Of a stretch of 37,066 bases of DNA, positions 1,976-15,158 are shown in pieces (positions within the stretch are counted from its first letter, which is position 1; the number at the start of each line of letters is the position of its first letter). This stretch comes from a virus. The position numbers were made by a program, and so were the translations under genes. Below the pieces are notes generated by a model. That model ran no database searches. It had not been told where the DNA came from and saw nothing but the letters and a program-made list of their open reading frames with translations. The stretch is taken from positions 1 through 37,066 of the IMG/VR virus record IMGVR_UViG_3300042905_002643; one strand, written 5' to 3'.

Positions 1976-2385
1976 TCGCACAAGGCATCGCACTATCAGC
2001 CAAGCAGGCATTCCTGCTCGGCGTCCACCAACCGACAGACACCTACAAAATCGCGCTCTATACAAGCCGCGCCGTGATCGGGCCGGAACTCAAAGCCTAC
2101 ACCGAGAATGGCGAAGTCTCCGGCCCCGGCTATGATCGCGGCGGCTATACGCTCACAGGCTTCAAGAATGGCATGGCGGGATCAAGCGCCTATGTCACAT
2201 TCAACGATCTTAAGATCGATCGCGCATCCTTCACCGCGCACGGGGCGGTGGTTTACAACGCCAGTAAAGGCAACGCAGTTCTTTGCACGCTGAACTTCGG
2301 CGGGGATCGCTCAGTTTTTGATGGCTCTTTTGAGCTTAAATTCCCGCAGCCCACAGAGAAAAATGCTTTGATTCTTTTGTCATGA
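1972..2385 (+). CDS. Small virion-associated protein, function unknown
   Basis: A 137-residue protein whose ATG overlaps the portal stop by four bases, implying coupled translation. It carries the pattern YKIALYTS, then a GEVSGPGYDRGGY loop, then a FTAHGAVVYN strand and a C-terminal KFPQP. I recognise this as a widespread phage family usually found among structural or fibre genes, with no firm assigned role. The repeated Gly/Ser/Thr-rich beta-strand pattern is consistent with a small beta-fold decoration, collar or fibre-base protein. No signal peptide or membrane segment is seen. The downstream fibre-like gene overlaps its stop, so they are probably co-translated. Alternative: a head-tail joining factor. 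Confidence 0.6.
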   Translation: MIAQGIALSAKQAFLLGVHQPTDTYKIALYTSRAVIGPELKAYTENGEVSGPGYDRGGYTLTGFKNGMAGSSAYVTFNDLKIDRASFTAHGAVVYNASKGNAVLCTLNFGGDRSVFDGSFELKFPQPTEKNALILLS

Positions 2386-3377
2386 TTGGCGCAAACATTC
2401 CAGCACCACCGGCAGCGGCGGGAGTGAGTGGCTCCACCGGCTCCGTTGACAACGCCATCCTCCGCGCAGACGGCACGGGGGGCGCGACCCTGCAAAATTC
2501 CGCCATCGTCATCGACGACGCCACCACCTCTACGCAGAACAATGTAGCCATCACGAACCAGCACACAGGCCAAACCAACTCCGCGCTTGTCCTCTCGCCG
2601 AAAGGAAATGGCGCGTTAATTATTGGGCCAAAACCTGATGGGACAACGACTGGGGGAAATGCCAGAGGAGCAAATGCAATTGATTTGCAATCAAGAGTGT
2701 TTGGCGGAAGCGCAACAACAATTGCAAGTGGAGTCTATTCGTTTGTTGCTGGATTATCAAATACAGCTTCAGGAAATACAGCGGTAGCTATTGGATTTAA
2801 TTGTTCATCAACAGGAATCCGTGCTTTTTCGTTGGGAGAAAACAATCAATCGAGCGCAGATAATTCATTTATTGCCGGAGGAATAAGCAACACATCTTCA
2901 GGTATTTATTCTGGAATTTTATCTGGACAACAAGCAACTTCAGATAGACGAGGAATGCAAGCTCACTCATCAGGACGCTTTGCGGCAAATGGCGATGCCC
3001 AGCGCGCCCGCTTTGTCCTTCGCTGTAAGACTACCACGAACACTGGAGTCGAGATGGCTCTTGATGGGTCTACGACATATCTTGGAATTCCATCTGGTAA
3101 AATCATCGCTTGCACGATCAACATTACTGGAACTAAATCGGATGGTTCTGCCGTTGCCCATTACCTTCGCCAATATTGCGTGAAAAATGTTGGAGGAACA
3201 TCGACAGAAGTTTATGCTCCTGTGACTATCGGAACCGATAACGCGGCAGGAACAACGATTGCGCTTTCTGCAAATAATACAGATGATACCCTTCGTATCT
3301 TGGTTACAGGTGTTGCATCTGAAACATGGAGGTGGGTAGCATCTGTGGACGCAGTTGAGGTTGCTTACGGAACTTAA
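2382..3377 (+). CDS. Fibre-like protein, copy A
   Basis: A 331-residue protein with three regions. Residues ~15-85 hold a SVDNAILRADGTGG block, seen in many phage fibres, followed by TNQHTGQTNSALVLSPKG. Residues ~85-190 are Gly/Ser/Ala/Asn repeats of the YadA-head type (for example NTAVAIGFN and NSFIAGGIS). The C-terminal ~140 residues begin AQRARFVLRCKTTTN and end VAYGT. YadA-head-like repeats form trimeric beta-rolls in adhesins and fibres, so a trimeric surface fibre is inferred. The gene is a diverged paralogue of 3633-4733. Its middle, roughly 2620-2960, is visibly AT-richer than the flanks, suggesting a swapped-in variable domain. Its location between portal and protease makes head fibre as plausible as tail fibre. 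No Shine-Dalgarno motif precedes the ATG, which overlaps the previous stop. Confidence 0.7.
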   Translation: MIGANIPAPPAAAGVSGSTGSVDNAILRADGTGGATLQNSAIVIDDATTSTQNNVAITNQHTGQTNSALVLSPKGNGALIIGPKPDGTTTGGNARGANAIDLQSRVFGGSATTIASGVYSFVAGLSNTASGNTAVAIGFNCSSTGIRAFSLGENNQSSADNSFIAGGISNTSSGIYSGILSGQQATSDRRGMQAHSSGRFAANGDAQRARFVLRCKTTTNTGVEMALDGSTTYLGIPSGKIIACTINITGTKSDGSAVAHYLRQYCVKNVGGTSTEVYAPVTIGTDNAAGTTIALSANNTDDTLRILVTGVASETWRWVASVDAVEVAYGT

Positions 3378-3632: not shown

Positions 3633-4733
3633 ATGCCTTCACCAGACCGACATTTCGCAAACGCCGCGATTTTCACGCACAGCACCGGACTTACACCGAA
3701 CAGCGGAGACGCGGCTCTCTACATCAAGAGTGATAATAAAGCCTACATCAAAGACTCTGCTGGAGCGGAAGTCATCGTAGGCGGGACGGGCACGATTGCC
3801 GGAACGCTGGGCACGGTGGACAATGCTGTGCCACGGGCGGATGGGACTGGTGGCGTGACGGCACAGGGTAGCGACATTAACATTGATGATGCCACCACCT
3901 CCACGCAGGCCAATGTTGCTATCACGAACCAGCACGCAGGCCAAACCAACTCCAGCCTCGTCCTTTCGCCGAAAGGAACAGGGGCGTTTATCCTTGGGCC
4001 GAAACCAGATGTAACAACTGGCGGAAGTGCGCGTGGAGTAAGGGCGGTAGATTTACAAATTGAAAAATCTGGTAGTTCGCAAGTTGCAAGCGGATCAAAT
4101 TCTGCAATTTTAGGAGGAGCAAGAAGCACTGCAAACGGAGCATATTCTTCAGTTTATGGAGGCTATCAAAATCAAGCGTCTGGTGCAGGAGCAATTGCCG
4201 CAGGCGGACACAATTCGGGCGCTGGAGGAACTAATTTAGCATCAGGCGAAATTTCAGCATGTAATGGTGGCGCTGGAGGAAGGGCTGATCGTTATGGAAT
4301 GCAAGCGCATTGCGCTGGAAATTTTGCTGGGGCATATTCAAACAACGGAGACGCCCAGCGCGCCCGCTTCGTCATGCGGAACAAGACGACCACGAACGCC
4401 GCAGTCGAGCTATTCCTCGACGGCAGCGCCACCCGCCTCACGATCCCGACTAACAAATACCTCACAGGAACAATCAACATCGCTGGCATCAAGAGTGATG
4501 GGACGGCGGCGGCAAGCTACATCCGCCAGTTCTCTATCAAGAATGTCGCTGGAACTACTTCACTTGTAGGAACCGTGAATACTATTGGAACAGACGAGGC
4601 CGCTAGCACCAGCATCAGCATTACGGCAAATGATACCAATGATGCCTTGAAGGTGGAAGTTACCGGAATCGCTTCAGAGACATGGCGCTGGGTTGCAGCG
4701 GTAGACGTTGTAGAAGTCGCTTACGGATCGTAA
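3633..4733 (+). CDS. Fibre-like protein, copy B
   Basis: A 366-residue paralogue of 2382-3377 with an extra ~45-residue N-terminal segment (HFANAAIFTHSTGL, then TPNSGDAALYIKSDNKAYIKD). That segment resembles the common phage fibre N-terminal attachment motif. Next comes a TVDNAVPRADGTGG block and TNQHAGQTNSSLVLSPKG. Then follow Gly/Ala/Ser/Asn repeats (AILGGARSTANGAYSSVYGG style) and a C-terminal part with AQRARFVMRNKTTTN ending VAYGS. The shared blocks are similar at both DNA and protein level, while the middle (roughly 4030-4345) differs and is AT-richer. This fits tandem duplication followed by domain replacement. Probably a trimeric surface fibre or receptor-binding protein; whether it sits on head or tail is not settled. 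Confidence 0.72.
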   Translation: MPSPDRHFANAAIFTHSTGLTPNSGDAALYIKSDNKAYIKDSAGAEVIVGGTGTIAGTLGTVDNAVPRADGTGGVTAQGSDINIDDATTSTQANVAITNQHAGQTNSSLVLSPKGTGAFILGPKPDVTTGGSARGVRAVDLQIEKSGSSQVASGSNSAILGGARSTANGAYSSVYGGYQNQASGAGAIAAGGHNSGAGGTNLASGEISACNGGAGGRADRYGMQAHCAGNFAGAYSNNGDAQRARFVMRNKTTTNAAVELFLDGSATRLTIPTNKYLTGTINIAGIKSDGTAAASYIRQFSIKNVAGTTSLVGTVNTIGTDEAASTSISITANDTNDALKVEVTGIASETWRWVAAVDVVEVAYGS

Positions 4734-7475: not shown

Positions 7476-7829
7476 ATGGCTACACAAATCGACAATACAT
7501 TCCGTTCGTTCTCCTTCGCGAGTGCGATTTCGGCAAACACGCTGGTGCGCGTCTCCGGCGACAATGCAGCCGCCGCGCTCGTCACTGCGAGTGAGGCAAT
7601 CGGCGTTGTTCAAGAAGATGTTTCTGCTACCGGCATCGGCAGCGTGAAACTTTTCAGCCCAACCCAATTCGGCTTGGTCTCTCCCGGCCCCGTGACTGCG
7701 GGACTCAATGTTTTCGCCACCACTGGCGGCGTCATTGTTGGCACGCTTGTTACATCGGCTCTCACCCTTGGCACCGCGATCAATAGTGGCGCAACCGGTG
7801 ACGTGATCGAATACGCTCCCAAGCTCTAA
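7476..7829 (+). CDS. Head decoration-like protein
   Basis: A 117-residue small protein rich in Ala, Val, Thr, Ser and Gly, placed between protease and major capsid genes, exactly where lambda gpD-type decoration proteins are encoded. Residues 15-60 (ANTLVRVSGDNAAAALVTA then EAIGVVQEDVSATG) and the closing GATGDVIEYAPKL resemble small capsid proteins annotated as DUF2190-like or decoration. A cementing role on the outer capsid is inferred from size, composition and position; direct motif evidence is limited. It is five bases downstream of the protease gene. Confidence 0.65.
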   Translation: MATQIDNTFRSFSFASAISANTLVRVSGDNAAAALVTASEAIGVVQEDVSATGIGSVKLFSPTQFGLVSPGPVTAGLNVFATTGGVIVGTLVTSALTLGTAINSGATGDVIEYAPKL

Positions 7830-7848: not shown

Positions 7849-8808
7849 ATGGCACTAACAACCACCACCATCCGAGGCGACATTGCCCAGGCCGTTTTCG
7901 AGGGCCGCAGCAATAAGCAAAACCTTTTCATCGGCGCAGAAGTCATGCCGATCTACGTAGCTGACGTGAAGAGCGGCGAATATCTCAAGATCAATCTTGG
8001 GCAGTCCGAAGCTCTTAATGACGATGCCACGAAGATCGCCGCTGGCAGCGCCTATCCCCGCGTGTCCCGCAAATTTGTCTCTGACACTTTTGCCGCCACG
8101 GAATACGGCCTTGAGGAAATCCTTCCTGATGCCACGCAGCGCGACTTGGCTCGCTTCCTCGATGTCGAGGTTGCCGTTGCCGACATGCTGCTCTCGCAAA
8201 TTCAGATCGGCCACGAAGCCCGCGTTGCCGCTCTCACCTATGCCGCGAATGGCTTGACTGCCATCTCTGGAACTGGCTCGACTGCCGCTTACACCGAGGC
8301 CAATATCACCACATTCGACCTTCCCGCCGATGTGGCCGCTGGCAAGTTGGAACTCGCCAAGTATGGCGTGCTTCCCAATGCGCTCGTCATGTCTGCAACT
8401 CTGTTCGAGCGCGTTCGCCGCAGCACAAAAGTTCAGAACCAGATGTTCGGCGTTGTTGCTACCAACAGCACCCGCTTGCTCTCCGAGCAGGAAGTTGCCC
8501 AGGCAGTCGGCGTCGAGAAAGTTCTCGTTGGCCGCGCACCCAAGAACACCGCCAAGAAGGGCCAAGCCTACTCTGGTGGATTTGTCTGGGGCGATACCTA
8601 CATGGCTCTTGCCTACATCGCCGGTGGCGAATTCGCCGCTGGTGGATTTGGCCGCTCGATCCTGTGGGGCGCTGATTCTCCGGTTCCCTTCGTGGCAGAA
8701 ACCTATCGCGACGAAGCCCGCCGCAGCAATGTTCTCCGCGTGCGTCAGCATGTGGCCGAGAAGGTTGTTGACGGAAGCTCGATCATCCGCATCACAACTG
8801 GCCTGTAA
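7849..8808 (+). CDS. Major capsid protein
   Basis: A 319-residue protein with the order expected of an HK97-fold capsid subunit. It has a mobile N-terminal part, a central ~150-residue region (FLDVEVAVADMLLSQIQIGHEARVAALTY), then ALVMSATLFERVRRSTKV. A late SILWGADSPVPFVAETYRDEARRSNVLRVRQ block resembles the C-terminal axial region of phage capsid families. Length, position after protease and decoration genes, and an efficient terminator directly after the gene all fit a product made in very large amounts. A weak AAGGA motif lies ten bases before the ATG. It needs no separate scaffold gene because the protease gene appears to carry one. Confidence 0.85.
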   Translation: MALTTTTIRGDIAQAVFEGRSNKQNLFIGAEVMPIYVADVKSGEYLKINLGQSEALNDDATKIAAGSAYPRVSRKFVSDTFAATEYGLEEILPDATQRDLARFLDVEVAVADMLLSQIQIGHEARVAALTYAANGLTAISGTGSTAAYTEANITTFDLPADVAAGKLELAKYGVLPNALVMSATLFERVRRSTKVQNQMFGVVATNSTRLLSEQEVAQAVGVEKVLVGRAPKNTAKKGQAYSGGFVWGDTYMALAYIAGGEFAAGGFGRSILWGADSPVPFVAETYRDEARRSNVLRVRQHVAEKVVDGSSIIRITTGL

Positions 8809-8835
8809 GCTTAGACAGTTGGTTTTTGTTTGCAG

Positions 8836-8869
8836 AAACCCGCCCTTGCAAGAGGGCGGGTTTTTTGTT
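8836..8869 (+). terminator. Strong rho-independent terminator after the capsid gene
   Basis: An inverted repeat with arms AAACCCGCCCT (8836-8846) and AGGGCGGGTT (8853-8862) around a six-base loop, followed by a T-rich run (TTTTTTGTTT from 8861, the first Ts also pairing). It stands about 28 bases after the capsid stop. A terminator here lets capsid mRNA be made in excess over the downstream sugar-transfer and tail genes. Confidence 0.93.
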
Positions 8870-8895: not shown

Positions 8896-10572
8896 ATGAA
8901 CCAAAAAAAGAAACTGGTCGCTGCATTCATTGCAGGGAACGAAGAAGAACGCATCGCTCGATGCGTTGAGAGCTACAAGAAAATCTGCGACGAGATCGTT
9001 GTCGTTCGCGCTGTAGGGTCGCTCAAACCAGATCGCACTCTCGACATTGCCAAGGAACTTGGGTGCGTTACCGCCAAATACAGCAACTCGCCACTCTGCG
9101 CCGATTGGCTTCACTTGGACAACTTCGCCAACGCTCGCAATCAAGCGTTCGCTCTTGCCTATGATCTTACAGGCGAAGATGGCTGGGTGATGTGGGCTGA
9201 TGTTGATGACATCCTGCCAGAGTCTCAAGTCGAGCCGCACCTGAAGGCGCTGACAGAATGCCCAGAAGATTGCGATTGGATTCTTACCGACTATGTGATC
9301 CCCGAGCAGCACAAGCGTGCGCCACGGGAACGATTCTTTCGCTACAAGAGCGGCTGGTGGTGGAGACCGGTGCATGAGAACATGCATCCAACCAAAACGA
9401 TCAAAATCTGGAGCCGCCGCGATCTCGAAACCGCGCACCACAAGCCGCCGCTTGGGCGCCGCCCAAGCAATGAGCGAAACACGCGAATCCTTGAGTTCAA
9501 CGATCAATTCACGCCGAACATCAAGTTTTACCTGCACTACGAAAAAATGATCCAAGGCCAGCGCGAGCAGGCAATCCGCTACGGCGCGGAATCTCTTGCG
9601 CTTAAAAGCCTGGATGCCGTGCATCGCTACGAGACGATGGTGAATATGAGCAACATGACGGATGGCGATACGGCCCTGCGATTCGCCGCCAGTGCCGAAA
9701 AGCTCGATCCGAATCGCCGCGAAGCTATCGCGTTGCAGGCATCAATTCTTCTCGACCAAGGCAAGGCAAAAGAATCGCTCGCCGCGCTTGATCGCATGGA
9801 GAAGATTCCCGTGCCATCATTCCCGCAATGGACGCACCGCGCCGAATACTATGGGTGGAAAGCCACGCGCCTTCGCGCTTGGGCGCTTCGCATGGCAGGA
9901 AAAGCCAAGGAAGCCTTCGCGCTTGAGCAGGATTTGCTCAATAGCTCACAAGGCCCAAAGATCAGCATTCTTCACGCGACAAGGGGAAGGCCTATGCAAG
10001 CCGTGCAAACGATGAGTCTGTGGCTATCTCGCGCCAAGAACCCTGCCGCCATCGAATACATCTTTGCCGTGGATGCAGATGATCCCACCGCCGCGCAGTT
10101 GCAACGCTTTGGCGGCGTGGCGCAGGAAGGTGATGCCGGTTCCGTAGGCGCTTGGAACTTGGCGGCATCGCATTGCGTTGGCGACATCCTAATCCAGATG
10201 AGTGACGATTGGGAATGCCCGCCGGGCTGGGATCAAATGATCCTTGATCGTCTTGATATTTCGTCAGAAAAATGTCTGCGAATTTCTGACAATTACCGCA
10301 CCGATGAGTTGCTGCCAATGGCAATCGTCACGCGCAAATTCTATGATCGACACGCATTATTCAACCCGCTCTTCAAAAACCAATTCAGCGATGCCGAGTT
10401 CACCGTTCGTGCGGCGAAGGCGGGCGCGATTGTGGATGCGCGGGATATTGTTTTCGCTCATCATCATCCTGCTTTCGAGCCGAGTGTTCCTGTGGATGAT
10501 ACGCATCGCCGTGTCAGCGATCCGCAAGAGCGTGAACGCGCTAAAGCAATCTTTGAAAAATTAACAACATGA
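8896..10572 (+). CDS. Two-domain glycosyltransferase with central helical repeats
   Basis: A 558-residue protein starting at ATG 8896, after the capsid terminator. Residues 1-220 form a GT2-type (GT-A) domain: AAFIAGNEEERIARCVESYKKICDEIVVV, then WADVDD (Asp102, Asp104, Asp105) as the metal and nucleotide-sugar motif, then acceptor-side W/H-rich residues. Residues ~225-365 are helical repeats like TPRs, as in SunS-related glycosyltransferases. Residues ~375-558 are a second GT-A-like domain (SILHATRGRPMQA, FAVDADDP, QMSDDWECPPGWD) homologous to the next protein's N-terminus. It probably transfers sugars to a virion or host component. The start overlaps nothing and has no Shine-Dalgarno motif. 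Confidence 0.82.
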   Translation: MNQKKKLVAAFIAGNEEERIARCVESYKKICDEIVVVRAVGSLKPDRTLDIAKELGCVTAKYSNSPLCADWLHLDNFANARNQAFALAYDLTGEDGWVMWADVDDILPESQVEPHLKALTECPEDCDWILTDYVIPEQHKRAPRERFFRYKSGWWWRPVHENMHPTKTIKIWSRRDLETAHHKPPLGRRPSNERNTRILEFNDQFTPNIKFYLHYEKMIQGQREQAIRYGAESLALKSLDAVHRYETMVNMSNMTDGDTALRFAASAEKLDPNRREAIALQASILLDQGKAKESLAALDRMEKIPVPSFPQWTHRAEYYGWKATRLRAWALRMAGKAKEAFALEQDLLNSSQGPKISILHATRGRPMQAVQTMSLWLSRAKNPAAIEYIFAVDADDPTAAQLQRFGGVAQEGDAGSVGAWNLAASHCVGDILIQMSDDWECPPGWDQMILDRLDISSEKCLRISDNYRTDELLPMAIVTRKFYDRHALFNPLFKNQFSDAEFTVRAAKAGAIVDARDIVFAHHHPAFEPSVPVDDTHRRVSDPQERERAKAIFEKLTT

Positions 10573-11735
10573 AAAAAATAACACTACTACACGCAACCCG
10601 TGGCACGCCTGTGCGCGCGCTAACGACAAGGAAAATCTGGTTTGAAAGGGCAAGCCACCCAGAAGACATCGAGCATATTTTCGGCATACAGGCCGATGAT
10701 CAAGATAGCATGAAGGCTTTTAGCGACATGAATTATGGCGTGAGTGTGCCGCCGCCAGAGTGGGCATCATCGAGCGTGGCGAATTGGAACACCGCCGCCG
10801 CACTCTCAACAGGCGAGATTCTTGTCGTGATCGCTGATGATCTCACACCACCGATTGGCTGGGACGATGAGCTTCGTAAACTTCCTTCTGGCAAACTGCC
10901 TTGGGCCTGCTATGTGCCGGACACCGTTCGCGATGACGGATTGATGTGCCACCCCGTTCTCTCTCGGGAACTCTACTCGCGCCGTGGATACATTTTCCAT
11001 CCCGACTTCTATGGCGTTTTCTGCGACAATGACTTCACAGTTCGCACGCAATTGGAAGTGACGATCTTACAAGTGAAGGGTTTGAAATGGATTCACGATC
11101 ACCCGAGCAATGGCGGCAGGCCGGAAGATTCAATCGTCCTGCACCAGAACAGCAAGGAAGCGTATGCCTACGGTGGCGCCACGTTCATGAAGATGTGGCC
11201 GCTTTTGCAAACATTCAATCGTTGCCGCAGCGTTGAGAGCGACATCCACGCGCACCTTTTGCGGCTCGCGCAACTCGCGAGAGAGTGCAATCACGTTACC
11301 GAGTTCGGTGTGCGCTCTGGAATGTCTACCTTTGCCTTTATGCACGGGCTTTCTAACAAAAGCCGCGCCACGCTTCGCAGCTACGATCTGGGCGATCCTT
11401 ACAACCTATACGCCAGCATCCGCCCGCACATCGAGATCGATTGGACATTCGCACACGGCTCAACGCTCGATGCGCCGACGATCGAGCCGACTGATATGCT
11501 TTTTGTCGATACGCTCCACACCTACGCACAAGTGAAGGGAGAGCTTGAGAAGCACGGCAACCAAGCAAGGAAATACATTGCCTTTCACGATACCGTGGCC
11601 TTCGGCATAAGCGGCGAAGACTTCGGCCCTGGCATCAATTTAGCTATCCAAGAATTTATGAAAGACAATGAGCATTGGGTGCTTTTCGAGCATTACGAAC
11701 ACAACAACGGCTTGACAATTCTTGCAAGGCAATGA
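10569..11735 (+). CDS. Glycosyltransferase-like and methyltransferase-like fusion protein
   Basis: A 388-residue protein whose ATG overlaps the previous stop. Residues 1-210 are a GT-A-like domain resembling the C-terminal domain of the preceding protein: TLLHATRGTPVRA, FGIQADDQD, then VIADDLTPPIGWD. Residues ~225-388 look like a class I Rossmann methyltransferase or related enzyme. They have a motif-I-like stretch TEFGVRSGMSTFAF, then TDMLFVDTLHTYAQVKGELEKHG and KYIAFHDT, typical of the Methyltransf_24 or cephalosporin-hydroxylase-like families. The protein could add a sugar and then modify it. Both domains are judged from motifs only; the substrate is unknown. Confidence 0.72.
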   Translation: MKKITLLHATRGTPVRALTTRKIWFERASHPEDIEHIFGIQADDQDSMKAFSDMNYGVSVPPPEWASSSVANWNTAAALSTGEILVVIADDLTPPIGWDDELRKLPSGKLPWACYVPDTVRDDGLMCHPVLSRELYSRRGYIFHPDFYGVFCDNDFTVRTQLEVTILQVKGLKWIHDHPSNGGRPEDSIVLHQNSKEAYAYGGATFMKMWPLLQTFNRCRSVESDIHAHLLRLAQLARECNHVTEFGVRSGMSTFAFMHGLSNKSRATLRSYDLGDPYNLYASIRPHIEIDWTFAHGSTLDAPTIEPTDMLFVDTLHTYAQVKGELEKHGNQARKYIAFHDTVAFGISGEDFGPGINLAIQEFMKDNEHWVLFEHYEHNNGLTILARQ

Positions 11736-12421
11736 GCGCAACTCACTCTGTATGGATCGGCCCCAAGCTGGGCTTGATGGAAAAACTCACTCTTACACTT
11801 CTTGTAAACCACGGCCACGATGTGACGCTTTGGACGCAGGGCAAGGTTGAAGGCGTGCCGGATAGCGTAGAAATTAAGCAATTGCCGAAGGATATCTTGA
11901 AACCTGTCGGTTTCGCAGGCAACCCACATGCCCACATTCCCAATGGCGGCATCGGCAGCTTCGCGCATTGGAGTGATTACTTCGCGCTTGAAACACTCTA
12001 CCGCCACGGCGGAACCTGGGTGCAGATGGATTGCGCGGTGAACTGCAAGCTCGACCTGACCGATTATACCTTCTCGCCTTGGCTTTCCACCATCTCGCCT
12101 GTGGTGATGAAAATCCCCGAGGGTAGTGCATTCGCCGTCGATGTGGCCGGCAGGCTACGCGACATGTTGGCCGATGGCATGGCGGGCCGTGATTGGCATG
12201 AGGCGATGCTTGCGATTCATCACGGACTTCAGCGCCATGGAATCCAGTATTCCACACTTCCAAGCTACATCGACTGCGGGGGCGTAGATGTCTCGCCATA
12301 CACGCACGCAATCAAGGCCGATGTGATCCATTGGTCAAACGCCACCCACAACACCAGCAAAGAAAAGCCGGTGAAGGGTAGCGAATACGAGCGGCTCTGC
12401 AAAGAGTGCAAGTTGATTTGA
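11732..12421 (+). CDS. Capsular-polysaccharide-type glycosyltransferase (GT32-like)
   Basis: A 229-residue protein overlapping the previous stop by four bases (ATGA). The stretch SDYFALETLYRHGGTWVQMD resembles the nucleotide-sugar-binding block of small GT32 or capsular polysaccharide synthesis enzymes, whose usual pattern is SD...LY.HGG.W.D.D. Here the first Asp of the DXD is replaced (Gln-Met-Asp), so metal binding may differ. The rest (VWIGPKLGLMEKLTLTLLVNHGHDVTLWTQ) fits the N-terminal Rossmann half. It is the last gene of the sugar cassette and is followed 15 bases later by a connector gene. Likely transfers a hexose or similar to the acceptor used by the two preceding enzymes. Confidence 0.72.
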   Translation: MSATHSVWIGPKLGLMEKLTLTLLVNHGHDVTLWTQGKVEGVPDSVEIKQLPKDILKPVGFAGNPHAHIPNGGIGSFAHWSDYFALETLYRHGGTWVQMDCAVNCKLDLTDYTFSPWLSTISPVVMKIPEGSAFAVDVAGRLRDMLADGMAGRDWHEAMLAIHHGLQRHGIQYSTLPSYIDCGGVDVSPYTHAIKADVIHWSNATHNTSKEKPVKGSEYERLCKECKLI

Positions 12422-12436
12422 CGCTCTGTCCCTTTT

Positions 12437-12745
12437 GTGAGTCTGCTTGATATTTTTGCCGCTGATTTTGCTGCTGTTAGTGCCGAGTTGCCTGTATCCT
12501 GCTCGTTCAACGGACAGGCATTCACGGCCAACCGATCAACATTCCGGCGAGACAATCAACTTCAAGACGGTGGTTTTTTTGGCTCGGTGGCGATGACCCT
12601 GACAGCTCCCTATAATTCGGTGACACAGGCAATCTCGCTTGGGGATCGGGTGCTGGTGGCCGGCGCGCCATTCCGAGTAATGAGCGCCGAACTCGCGCAG
12701 GATGGCGTGAGCGTGGATTTCCAACTGGAGGATGTAAACAAATGA
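12437..12745 (+). CDS. Probable head-tail connector protein
   Basis: A 102-residue protein starting with GTG. It has the composition of small phage connector or joining proteins: an N-terminal helix (LLDIFAADFAAVSAEL) then beta strands with FTANRSTFRRDNQL, LGDRVLVAGAPFRV and VDFQLEDVN. Its place between the sugar cassette and the tail-terminator-like gene, with a four-base overlap to that gene, suggests a stopper or joining role similar to lambda gpFII. The family is not certain. It is the first canonical virion gene after the sugar cassette, showing that the cassette splits the head-tail block. Confidence 0.5.
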   Translation: MSLLDIFAADFAAVSAELPVSCSFNGQAFTANRSTFRRDNQLQDGGFFGSVAMTLTAPYNSVTQAISLGDRVLVAGAPFRVMSAELAQDGVSVDFQLEDVNK

Positions 12746-13227
12746 GCCTTTTCTTTCCAGAACCACAGCAACCAATTCAGCCAATCAAGCCGCCAGCAAC
12801 AACGACACTCACGCTTGAAAAGGCACTCACTGATGCCTTCATCCAGGCACTTCAAGCTGAACTCGGGACAGCACTCACCGTCACCGCTGCCGAGAATTTC
12901 GATGCCATCGCGCTTCCGGCCTGCTTCGTCAAGGCAACACGCCAACAAGAATCAATCATTAACTCGGCAATCTTCCAATTCTCGGTGGACATTTCTTTAG
13001 CCATTCAAGCCGACGATTCTGATCCGCAGGTATTGGAAAGCCTTTGGGCTGAGGTGCTGTGCGTTGCCTACGATGTGGACAATATTGTGGACAAACTTAA
13101 CTCCATCCGCCCGCAGTATTGTTATGTTTACGGCGTGATTCGCGATGGCGGGGTTTCTCTCCAGACTACCGAGCGACACTTCTTGCGCTCAGTTTCTCTC
13201 AGGGTTCATTCCGCGCTTGTGAGTTGA
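12742..13227 (+). CDS. Probable tail terminator or neck protein
   Basis: A 161-residue protein overlapping the previous gene. After a Pro-rich start it has helices and strands (LTLEKALTDAFIQALQAELGTALTV, then QFSVDISLAIQADDSDPQVLESLWAEVLCV). The alternating helix-strand pattern and a length near 140-160 residues fit minor tail proteins of the gpU or gpZ type that cap the tail tube or join it to the head. The following gene is a tail-tube candidate, the usual order. Functional naming rests on order and size. Confidence 0.5.
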   Translation: MSLFFPEPQQPIQPIKPPATTTLTLEKALTDAFIQALQAELGTALTVTAAENFDAIALPACFVKATRQQESIINSAIFQFSVDISLAIQADDSDPQVLESLWAEVLCVAYDVDNIVDKLNSIRPQYCYVYGVIRDGGVSLQTTERHFLRSVSLRVHSALVS

Positions 13228-13242
13228 CATTTTCGGCCAAAT

Positions 13243-13614
13243 ATGGCCGCAACCGTAATCACTTCTTCCGCCGCTTCAGGTGTCACTTTTGGCGCCACCG
13301 CCGAAACTGGCATCATCCTTTCTTCTTTCTCCCGTAGCGTTCAAAGCTCCAAATCCGAGCTAATGGACGAGGACGGCGACATTGTTGCTGTTTCGTATTA
13401 TGGGGCAACCGCTACCATTTCTGTTTCCGGTGCGATCAATGGATCGTCCGGCCTTGCCACTGCTTCTGTTGGAGGACTCTTGACCCTCGCCAACCCGACC
13501 ACTGCACATGGCGTGACTGGCGGGAAGATCGTTGTTGATAGCGTTTCTGCCGAATCTGGCAGCGATGCGTTCCGCACAGTGACGATTGAGGCGACTCAAT
13601 ACCCGAGCCTGTAA
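13243..13614 (+). CDS. Probable major tail tube protein
   Basis: A 123-residue beta-rich protein, very rich in Ser, Ala, Thr, Gly and Val, sitting between the tail-terminator candidate and the chaperone pair. The stretches FGATAETGIILSSFSRSVQSSK, MDEDGDIVAVSYYGATATISVSGAI and TVTIEATQYPSL are compatible with a short tube subunit. It is followed by its own terminator, as the abundant capsid gene is, implying high expression. No enzyme or transmembrane motif is present. It is short for a tail tube, so a small tube or spike subunit is an alternative. Confidence 0.62.
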   Translation: MAATVITSSAASGVTFGATAETGIILSSFSRSVQSSKSELMDEDGDIVAVSYYGATATISVSGAINGSSGLATASVGGLLTLANPTTAHGVTGGKIVVDSVSAESGSDAFRTVTIEATQYPSL

Positions 13615-13633
13615 TTTCCGGCGACGCGCCGCT

Positions 13634-13668
13634 GGCAGACCGGCTTGAAAAAAGTCTGCCTCGCTTTT
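13634..13668 (+). terminator. Terminator after the tail tube gene
   Basis: Arms GGCAGAC (13634-13640) and GTCTGCC (13654-13660) pair fully around a 13-base loop, with TCGCTTTT following. It lies in the 61-base gap after the tail-tube candidate. The T-run is broken at its start, so termination may be partial, which would tune the downstream tail genes. Confidence 0.7.
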
Positions 13669-13675
13669 AGAGAAT

Positions 13676-14089
13676 ATGATTACAGAGACAATAAACACGA
13701 AAGAGGAATTTGTTTGGACGGCAAACCTTAAAGCCGCCACTGCCCTTGCCACGCTTGGCTTTGGGCTTAAATACCCAAACCCCGTCACGCGCACGATTCG
13801 TTCCGATAAGAAGGAATCCACGGTTTTCTGGTTTAACTCTACCAATGACAAAGGCGATCACGCTGAAGAAATTTTGCTCTGGATGACGAAGGGTGGGGAA
13901 GACTTGGAGAAGCGCGATCCTGAACATCTCGTTAATTACTTGCGAGCCTACGCCGCCAACCGCGATGCGCTGGTGGACATCATTCGCGGCACACCCCGAC
14001 ACATCGTGATCGAGCGCAATGGGAAACGCATCGCAGTTCGTGAGGATGCAACCGAAGAGGATAAGGCGCAGATTGCTAAAATACTGTGA
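13676..14089 (+). CDS. Conserved-looking tail-region protein, function unknown
   Basis: A 137-residue protein of mixed helix and strand. The N-terminal half has TANLKAATALATLGFGLKYPNPVTR and STVFWFN; the C-terminal half is acidic and helical, with HLVNYLRAYAANRDALVDIIRG. It starts just after the terminator that follows the tube gene and overlaps the downstream frame through GTGA. The placement is that of tail assembly genes, but I see no recognised family. Possible roles: tail-tube accessory or assembly factor. No membrane segment or signal. Confidence 0.5.
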   Translation: MITETINTKEEFVWTANLKAATALATLGFGLKYPNPVTRTIRSDKKESTVFWFNSTNDKGDHAEEILLWMTKGGEDLEKRDPEHLVNYLRAYAANRDALVDIIRGTPRHIVIERNGKRIAVREDATEEDKAQIAKIL

Positions 14090-14091
14090 CT

Positions 14092-14526
14092 ATGAACGGC
14101 GTTGATCCAGGGCCGGACGATTTTCTTAATACCTTAAAATTTCAGCTTGAGGCTTTAAAGCAAAAGAAACAAAAAATTGCGGCCGGCATTGAAAACATTG
14201 GAGCTGAATTGCAGGGCCTCCAGAATGCAGCTCAAAACGATCCATGCTTGCCGCTTTCGCCTGAATATAAAGAAAAAATTGAACAATTAAAAATTCAACA
14301 AAAAGATGCAAAAGATATTTCTGAATACATTGATTGGCAAATTCAGAAAATAAATCAACGCATATCTGGATCAAGTAATTCAGCGCGGCCTGATGCGACA
14401 AGCGGCGCAAAGATAAAAGCAGCAGCGAAAAAGCTACAAGGGAAAGACGGGAAAAAGGGGGTTCGGGGCATCAAGGGTGCGGACGCATCAGCGACTACGG
14501 GGCAATCCAAGGTTTGTAAAAAATAA
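14092..14526 (+). CDS. Coiled-coil basic protein, unknown
   Basis: A protein of about 144 residues (two more if a GTG at 14086 that overlaps the previous stop is used). Residues ~10-95 are a charged coiled coil (FQLEALKQKKQKIAAGIENIGAEL-type heptads). The C-terminal ~45 residues are Lys/Gly-rich with collagen-like Gly-x-x triplets (GKDGKKGVRGIKGADA). The DNA is noticeably more A-rich than the adjacent tail genes, hinting at recent acquisition or relaxed constraint. It is wedged between tail-assembly genes, three bases before the chaperone start. Function unknown; a structural or assembly accessory role is inferred. Confidence 0.5.
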   Translation: MNGVDPGPDDFLNTLKFQLEALKQKKQKIAAGIENIGAELQGLQNAAQNDPCLPLSPEYKEKIEQLKIQQKDAKDISEYIDWQIQKINQRISGSSNSARPDATSGAKIKAAAKKLQGKDGKKGVRGIKGADASATTGQSKVCKK

Positions 14527-14529
14527 TTT

Positions 14530-14934
14530 ATGAAAAGAAAAAACCAAAACATTGAACTCGTGAAGGACGATGAAATCCTTCGCGAAGAAGGCATGGCCGA
14601 TGGGTCGACAAAAGTTGCAGGGATTGAGCTTCGGCCTATCACCGCACTCTCGGTATCGTGGATGCAGCGCAACGAGGTGTTTTCCGATGTCAAGGATTTG
14701 ATCTGGAAGACCTGTGCGTTTGCCTATCTCCATTCGGCACCAAAGCCCGAAATCCGCGCCGTCGTGAACGACAAGGCGGAGTTTGCCGAAGCGGTGGATG
14801 AATGGATCGATGAGAACATTTCCCATCACCTTCAGACTGGCGAGATCGCCGCAGGAATGAATGCGGCGTTCCGACGCTACGCAGCGAGCGCAAGTGAAAT
14901 CTTGGGCGCGAAAGGTTCCGCAGGGGGAAACTAA
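14530..14934 (+). CDS. Tail assembly chaperone, short (G-like) product
   Basis: A 134-residue acidic, helical protein (SVSWMQRNEVFSDVKDLIWKTC, then VDEWIDENISHHLQTGEI). It stands in the lambda G position, between tube and tape-measure genes. Its last codons before TAA form a slippery heptamer G GGA AAC (14925-14931) exactly in the required phase. A -1 shift there joins it to the frame that continues to 15158, as in the G/GT pair of lambda. Such chaperones coat the tape-measure protein so tube subunits assemble around it. The short form is made by normal termination; the long form comes from shifting. Confidence 0.72.
   Translation: MKRKNQNIELVKDDEILREEGMADGSTKVAGIELRPITALSVSWMQRNEVFSDVKDLIWKTCAFAYLHSAPKPEIRAVVNDKAEFAEAVDEWIDENISHHLQTGEIAAGMNAAFRRYAASASEILGAKGSAGGN
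14925..14931 (+). promoter_or_regulatory. Programmed -1 frameshift site (G GGA AAC)
   Basis: The heptamer GGGAAAC fits X XXY YYZ, with GGA and AAC as the last two zero-frame codons before the TAA stop at 14932. After a -1 slip the ribosome reads CTA and continues open until the TGA at 15156-15158. GC-rich sequence just downstream (around 14938-14948) could form a stimulating structure, though I did not confirm one. Position between tube and tape-measure genes matches the conserved phage site. Confidence 0.75.
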
Positions 14935-15158
14935 ACAGCCCCGGCTGGTTGGCTGGATATGTTTACCGCATTGCCAAAGCCACCGGCTGGGGCTGGCGCG
15001 AGATCACCGAAGAGTTGCCGTTCAGCGCGGGACTTCAAATCATTTTTTGCGACGATGCCGCCCAAGGCAAGCGGCGGGCCTGGTTGCGAGATAGCAAGGT
15101 TGCCGATGTTGACGCTCTCGCCCAATTGGAGGAAGCCTTTGCCAAAGTTCAAATTTGA
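14931..15158 (+). CDS. Tail assembly chaperone, T-like part of GT fusion
   Basis: This -1 frame continues from the slippery site for 75 codons, giving a GT-like fusion of about 209 residues with 14530-14931. The segment contains YRIAKATGWGWREITEELPFS, the short helix-turn pattern expected in T-type parts, and an acidic C-terminal helix (DVDALAQLEEAFAK). An independent start at TTG 14949 is possible, but no good ribosome-binding site precedes it. Its last 20 bases overlap the next gene. It would be made in smaller amounts than the G-like product. Confidence 0.7.
   Translation, partial: LNSPGWLAGYVYRIAKATGWGWREITEELPFSAGLQIIFCDDAAQGKRRAWLRDSKVADVDALAQLEEAFAKVQI

Follow-up and report, generated by a model that had tools for sequence, protein, structure and literature searches.

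Why would a phage keep three sugar-transfer genes in the middle of its structural block? This question is raised by a 37,066-nucleotide virus sequence (IMG/VR record IMGVR_UViG_3300042905_002643, positions 1 to 37,066; the whole stretch is called the window here), in which a cassette encoding GT1, protein 2 and protein 3 lies between the genes for the major capsid protein (MCP) and a connector-like protein. The answer that we favour, with a probability of roughly 0.6, is that the cassette is a virion-glycosylation system working directly on protein, in which GT1 would start a glycan that the downstream enzymes would extend and methylate. It builds on computed folds, conservation, fixed position, purifying selection and module exchange. 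The features concerned are the following:

7849–8808, plus strand: MCP (phrog_1005 major head protein, E 3e-30)
8834–8865, plus strand: intrinsic terminator at the boundary of the MCP gene and the cassette (perfect hairpin plus T-run)
8896–10572, plus strand: GT1, 558 aa, ATG start (Pfam and PHROGs domains)
10569–11735, plus strand: protein 2, 388 aa, predicted GT-A domain fused to a Methyltransf_24-type O-methyltransferase domain
11732–12421, plus strand: protein 3, 229 aa, predicted GT-A fold glycosyltransferase (GT32/GT8-like)
12437–12745, plus strand: connector-like head-tail attachment gene (Pfam Phage_attach, E 0.0018, under cutoff)
10860–12000, no strand: allelic replacement tract (sliding identity against the nearest relative, L002)

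As a first-pass annotation of this locus had held, the three genes overlap, by 4 nt at each of the two junctions, and the ratio of nonsynonymous to synonymous substitution rates (dN/dS ~0.04–0.19 for all three, against relatives) marks them as real genes under constraint. The same annotation had described the cassette as isolated by a terminator. The hairpin is real: it is kept in 86 of 86 distinct MCP–GT1 junctions, where the stem letters vary (CCCGCCC, CCCACCC, GCCACC and GCCGGGGA) while the pairing holds, and it probably lowers transcription beyond the MCP gene. On the connector side, however, the cassette is not insulated, because our search found no convincing cassette promoter and only 15 nt separate the stop of protein 3 from the start of the connector-like gene. 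Given that no convincing promoter was found, read-through would be the simplest source of cassette mRNA.

Domains of the cassette proteins

The domains of GT1 were read from sequence profiles and follow the order GT2 (residues ~6–200), a tetratricopeptide repeat (TPR)-like middle (~219–300) and a second glycosyltransferase-like domain (355–527). Pfam GT2 (PF00535) matched residues 15–174 with E 1e-15 (58 bits vs a cutoff of 23.3), and PHROGs placed phrog_13126 at 9–350 and phrog_14945 at 355–527. The W-A-D-x-D-D motif of the GT2 domain, of the D-x-D type, was invariant in 21 of 21 sequences and reads W-F-D-x-D-D in a deeper lineage described below; motifs common to both lineages include W-x-D-x-DD, RER, HE, HAT, GAWN and SDD. 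Searched against the PDB, the GT1 profile found only three GT2 enzymes, GmaR (E 1e-7), SunS (E 5e-5) and a third, weak entry (E 0.15) that we take to be ThuS, together with TPR designs (designed TPR, E 0.016) and chance-level chains. The GT2 domain thereby appears to resemble protein or peptide glycosyltransferases. SunS was also the sole NCBIfam match, a weak one at 16.5 bits vs the 350 bits of the equivalog cutoff (TIGR04195); by sequence, GT1 is only a remote SunS relative.

The C-terminal domain of GT1 and the N-terminal domain of protein 2 had been called homologous from the letters alone, and this was upheld: they share 34% identity over 180 aa (BLASTP, E 4e-28), the common domain scored 103 bits vs at most 21 bits in 100 shuffles, and residues 2–193 of protein 2 again matched phrog_14945 (E 3e-10). 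AlphaFold2 models were available for proteins 2 and 3. That of protein 2 was of low confidence at residues 144–160, 178–207 and 217–224, so comparisons were limited to its two domain cores. The GT-A part aligned to WrtF (Z 16.3) and the methyltransferase part to MycF (Z 16.4, 156 residues) and SpnH (Z 14.7, 160 residues), both of which methylate sugars. Residues 245–329 resembled Methyltransf_24 (E 3e-5) at 25.2 bits, slightly under the curated cutoff of 26.3, a family that the stand-alone methyltransferase of one relative (L271) matched with 70 bits. For the C-terminal domain of protein 2, a class I O-methyltransferase fold closest to sugar O-methyltransferases is thus predicted by the model.

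For protein 3, all Pfam matches stayed below threshold (Gly_transf_sug, 13.3 bits vs a cutoff of 23), but its model, at pLDDT 83, folds as GT-A: Foldseek gave E 8e-8, and alignments to YeGT, glycogenin and other GT-A enzymes scored Z 12–15. Residues 93–100, GG-x-W-V-Q-M-D, were invariant in 27 of 27 sequences. Here Q-M-D replaces the usual D-x-D, and with Gln in place of the first acid, metal or donor binding may differ. Neither a score above the Pfam cutoff nor the D-x-D of the GT32 / DXD sugar-binding family was found in protein 3, and neither protein 2 nor protein 3 gave a meaningful match when its profile was searched against the PDB. Domain searches and structure models, proposed in the first-pass annotation as a check on its enzyme classes, therefore returned glycosyltransferase folds (Pfam GT2 at E 1e-15 for GT1, GT-A models for proteins 2 and 3) and a sugar-type O-methyltransferase domain, while the GT32-like label stood at the level of the fold, with the exact family unproven.

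Position of GT1 and the exchangeable slot

Contigs with distinct MCP ends and at least 300 nt of downstream sequence were counted as informative, and loci were retrieved by MCP alone alongside the GT1 search, to avoid bias. Each of the 115 distinct contigs so defined carried GT1 downstream of the MCP gene, as did each of the 100 retrieved by MCP alone; 11 of the 115 have an extra gene of 0.6–1.3 kb in between. Where an MCP locus showed no GT1, the contig stopped at most 125 nt past the MCP gene. GT1 relatives were encoded by 55 viral contigs and followed MCP wherever the locus included it. A deeper lineage consists of L188, a match from a genome collection, and nine viral contigs, with MCPs 50–55% identical to that of the window; a GT1 of 30–33% identity was found downstream of MCP in eight of these nine viral contigs, and the ninth stops ~600 nt past MCP, in a lineage where GT1 can lie 1.9 kb away. 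The L188 contig was binned in a Betaproteobacteria metagenome-assembled genome and matches a 56.8-kb viral contig, L267 (MCP 98%, GT1 100% identical); L188 is therefore viral, and the host link to Betaproteobacteria comes from the binning only.

A comparison with related phages lacking the cassette, which had been suggested earlier, found no informative relative that lacks GT1, and the idea that the whole cassette is a recent insertion was rejected on the same count (0 informative relatives without GT1). Phage records were searched at the DNA level with the window region and by tblastn with GT1 and protein 3; neither search gave a match, the second meaning that no cultured relative with GT1 or protein 3 was found. 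By capsid, the closest cultured phages are Curvibacter phage TJ1 and Stenotrophomonas phage phiSHP3 (25–28% identity), in which no glycosyltransferase is annotated downstream of MCP.

Downstream of GT1 lies a slot with changing content, closed by the connector-like gene as its conserved downstream edge. The type A module of the window (methyltransferase fusion plus GT-A) was present in 29 distinct contigs, type B (DUF5672 plus GT9-like) in 40 and type D (Methyltransf_23 plus GT9-like) in 3; type C (L053) comprises a GT1 with a GT25-like tail, an FkbM methyltransferase, a second GT2 and a GT9-like enzyme, and the L137 module a possible sulfotransferase (read from a motif, without a Pfam match), a methyltransferase and a GT9-like enzyme, all GT9 and GT25 labels being motif readings of parts without a Pfam match. 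The slot of the deeper lineage holds either Methyltransf_24 (L271) and a fusion of exostosin GT47 with radical SAM (L271, L273) or GT2-like, HAD, nucleotidyltransferase and GT genes (L188). The exostosin GT47 and radical-SAM-like fusion (L271 13480–15333, L273 14099–15976) is an unusual combination in itself.

Two mosaics, which could in principle be assembly chimaeras, trace replacement within this slot. L194 and L195 are 98.4% identical in MCP, 94% in GT1 and 97% in the connector, yet carry modules of type A and type D, respectively, and their DNA alignment ends at the end of GT1 and restarts shortly before the connector. Between the window and L002, identity is 100% over 6595 to ~10,860 and again over ~12,000 to 15,000, except for a small patch near 10,195–10,344, vs 83–88% in the intervening 1.1 kb (~10,860–12,000). 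Synonymous differences came to 0.42 for gene 2 and 0.20 for gene 3, as against 0 for MCP and connector. Module labels changed 5 times on the MCP tree (minimum possible 4) vs 23 times in shuffles, so module swaps are real but occasional; an initial reading of frequent swapping was toned down for this reason. Modules are mostly inherited and sometimes replaced.

Candidate acceptors and competing explanations

For the cassette itself, catalytic activity, the order of steps, the acceptor, the identity of the sugars and the benefit are what we infer. GT1, a soluble GT2 enzyme that contains a TPR-like stretch, would recognise a freshly synthesised virion protein in the cytoplasm of the host late in infection and would use nucleotide sugars of the host to attach the first sugar or sugars to Ser/Thr (or Asn). 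The chain would then be extended by the second domain of GT1, by protein 3 and by the GT-A domain of protein 2, the methyltransferase domain of which would O-methylate a sugar. With GT1 kept and the downstream enzymes exchanged, one capsid type could appear in different glycan coats. Flagellin glycosylation is a cytoplasmic process carried out by soluble enzymes. GmaR, a glycosyltransferase with TPR that sugars flagellin, was proposed by its authors to recognise flagellin through the TPR (PMC9638930), and the TPR part of FlmG, the glycosyltransferase fold of which differs, binds flagellin directly (PMC7591256). As in GmaR and SunS, a TPR-like region comes after the N-terminal GT2 domain of GT1, but GT1 carries a second glycosyltransferase-like domain, where GmaR has an antirepressor part instead. 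The likeness to GmaR and SunS, the TPR precedent and the lack of membrane segments in the cassette proteins (peak hydrophobicity is under membrane-span level) favour a scheme in which GT1 glycosylates a virion protein directly. Judged by position, the likeliest acceptor would be the MCP from the adjacent gene, with the small protein encoded at 7476–7829 as second candidate. SunS links its sugar to Cys and the window's MCP contains none (0 by composition), which makes an O-link likelier than a SunS-type S-link; S-glycosylation of the MCP was dropped accordingly.

Several points weigh against this scheme. The TPR stretch of GT1 is weak by sequence (Pfam E 0.2), the PDB comparison set is skewed to enzymes already solved, and the PHROG label for the N-terminal family of GT1 is beta-1,4-glycosyltransferase, a type also found in lipopolysaccharide (LPS) core synthesis. 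Some variant modules (GT9-like, GT25-like) resemble LPS enzymes as well. Furthermore, the neighbouring genes are all inherited together, so that the adjacency of MCP and GT1 alone is no proof of MCP as the target.

The LPS-like features lead to another explanation, in which the enzymes change LPS or another surface glycan of the host late in infection, keeping virions from sticking to debris or blocking superinfection, and the swaps track host serotypes. GT9-like, GT25-like, FkbM and exostosin enzymes are of kinds known from surface-glycan clusters, module exchange between conserved flanks would fit a serotype change too, and the PHROG name points the same way. We nevertheless consider a host-surface role unlikely: no membrane protein, flippase or lipid-carrier enzyme was seen in the cassette and hydrophobicity is too low for spans, the nearest solved GT2 enzymes of GT1 have protein as substrate, and the place between capsid and connector is fixed in all informative contigs. 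The first-pass annotation had offered virion decoration and host-surface change side by side, leaning by location towards a virion protein; the comparison favours the virion protein, with GT1 after MCP throughout, while the sequence leaves capsid, fibre and host surface as candidate acceptors.

If a virion protein is glycosylated, the glycan might instead sit on a tail fibre, a receptor-binding protein or the 7476–7829 protein and tune adsorption. In mycobacteriophages, capsid and tail tube are both glycosylated according to the papers cited below, and the 7476–7829 protein has 22% Ser+Thr and is conserved beside MCP. The cassette adjoins MCP and not the tail genes, however, and GT1 tracks MCP (Spearman 0.84 for distances, vs 0.62 for MCP and connector), so that we regard this variant as improbable while keeping other acceptors as candidates. 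Decoration of modified phage DNA bases against restriction, suggested by Mom-like, DNA methyltransferase and QueD-like genes in the MCP–GT1 gap of relatives and by a TET/JBP oxygenase in one relative record, is very improbable and was dropped as the main role, because the window record, which may be incomplete, has no match to Tet_JBP (base hydroxylase) or Thymidylat_synt (hydroxymethylase type), and because TET/JBP is absent in 13 of 14 family records (present in 1/14) and a thymidylate-synthase-type enzyme in 14 of 14, whereas the cassette is universal.

Known systems and neighbouring genes

As far as our literature search showed, proven virion glycosylation in tailed phages is confined to a few mycobacteriophages, and the search found no glycosylation cassette between capsid and connector. 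Mycobacteriophages (Che8 gp110, Corndog gp38, Myrna; Freeman et al. 2023) are described as attaching sugars to capsid and tail tube by means of enzymes that they encode themselves (PMC12363180, PMC12619734). The likeness is that a tailed phage encodes glycosyltransferases whose proposed substrates are the proteins of its own virion. Here, in contrast, the initiator is fixed beside MCP across the clade, an exchangeable slot and a methyltransferase are added, and the glycan is predicted from genes alone. A064R of the chlorovirus PBCV-1 combines two rhamnosyltransferases with a methyltransferase and makes the terminal part of the capsid glycan, and its mutants are antigenic variants (PMC9614988, PMC5408694). 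It resembles the cassette in the GT-GT-methyltransferase order, the cytoplasmic methylated glycan on a major capsid protein (predicted in our case) and antigenic variants arising in an enzyme gene; it differs in coming from a eukaryotic giant virus, in having its domains in one protein and in ending the chain, which it does not start. Both the mycobacteriophage enzymes and A064R are likened to the cassette by principle and domain order, not by homology. Serotype-converting gtr modules of temperate phages are also exchangeable, phage-borne glycosyltransferase modules, but the present cassette contains no membrane-bound gtr-type proteins and sits inside the structural operon.

What is new is a fixed capsid-side initiating enzyme, present in every checkable member, together with an exchangeable tailoring slot. 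More tentatively, and at somewhat less than even odds, the two related phage lineages may possess an obligate virion-serotype locus: the capsid-side protein glycosyltransferase would start the glycan directly on the capsid and the recombining tailoring slot (methyl, exostosin, perhaps sulfate or radical-SAM chemistry) would set the coat, giving antigen-like variation of particles at unchanged capsid sequence. If this is true, sugar-coated particles would be a lasting trait of whole phage lineages (more than 100 distinct environmental contigs), and the coat would be exchangeable by recombination, comparable to bacterial O-antigen exchange. The cassette would then offer a small, testable enzyme set (one initiator, swappable tailoring pairs) for the benefit of sugar on phage heads.

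Additionally, the gap between MCP and GT1 serves in relatives as a place where DNA-modification genes insert. The types comprise Mom-like (phrog_1384), DNA methyltransferases (phrog_757, phrog_363), QueD-like and the unknown family phrog_15826, and the sites are L004 4630–5178, L021 5355–5981, L029 5425–5979, L042 4850–6004, L003 471–1483 and L222 4022–4654. The TET/JBP-type oxygenase is encoded in L266 (G002:C1:37354-37767), the record of L021, which also has a Mom-like gene in this gap. Between MCP and GT1 of L271 (10338–11099), a Laminin_G_3 lectin-like protein is encoded, possibly a capsid-surface protein. Among those window genes that were scanned, no integrase was seen. The window genes at 2382–3377 and 3633–4733, with a weak YadA-head match and absent or divergent in many relatives, look like paralogues, as the same places were matched in relatives.

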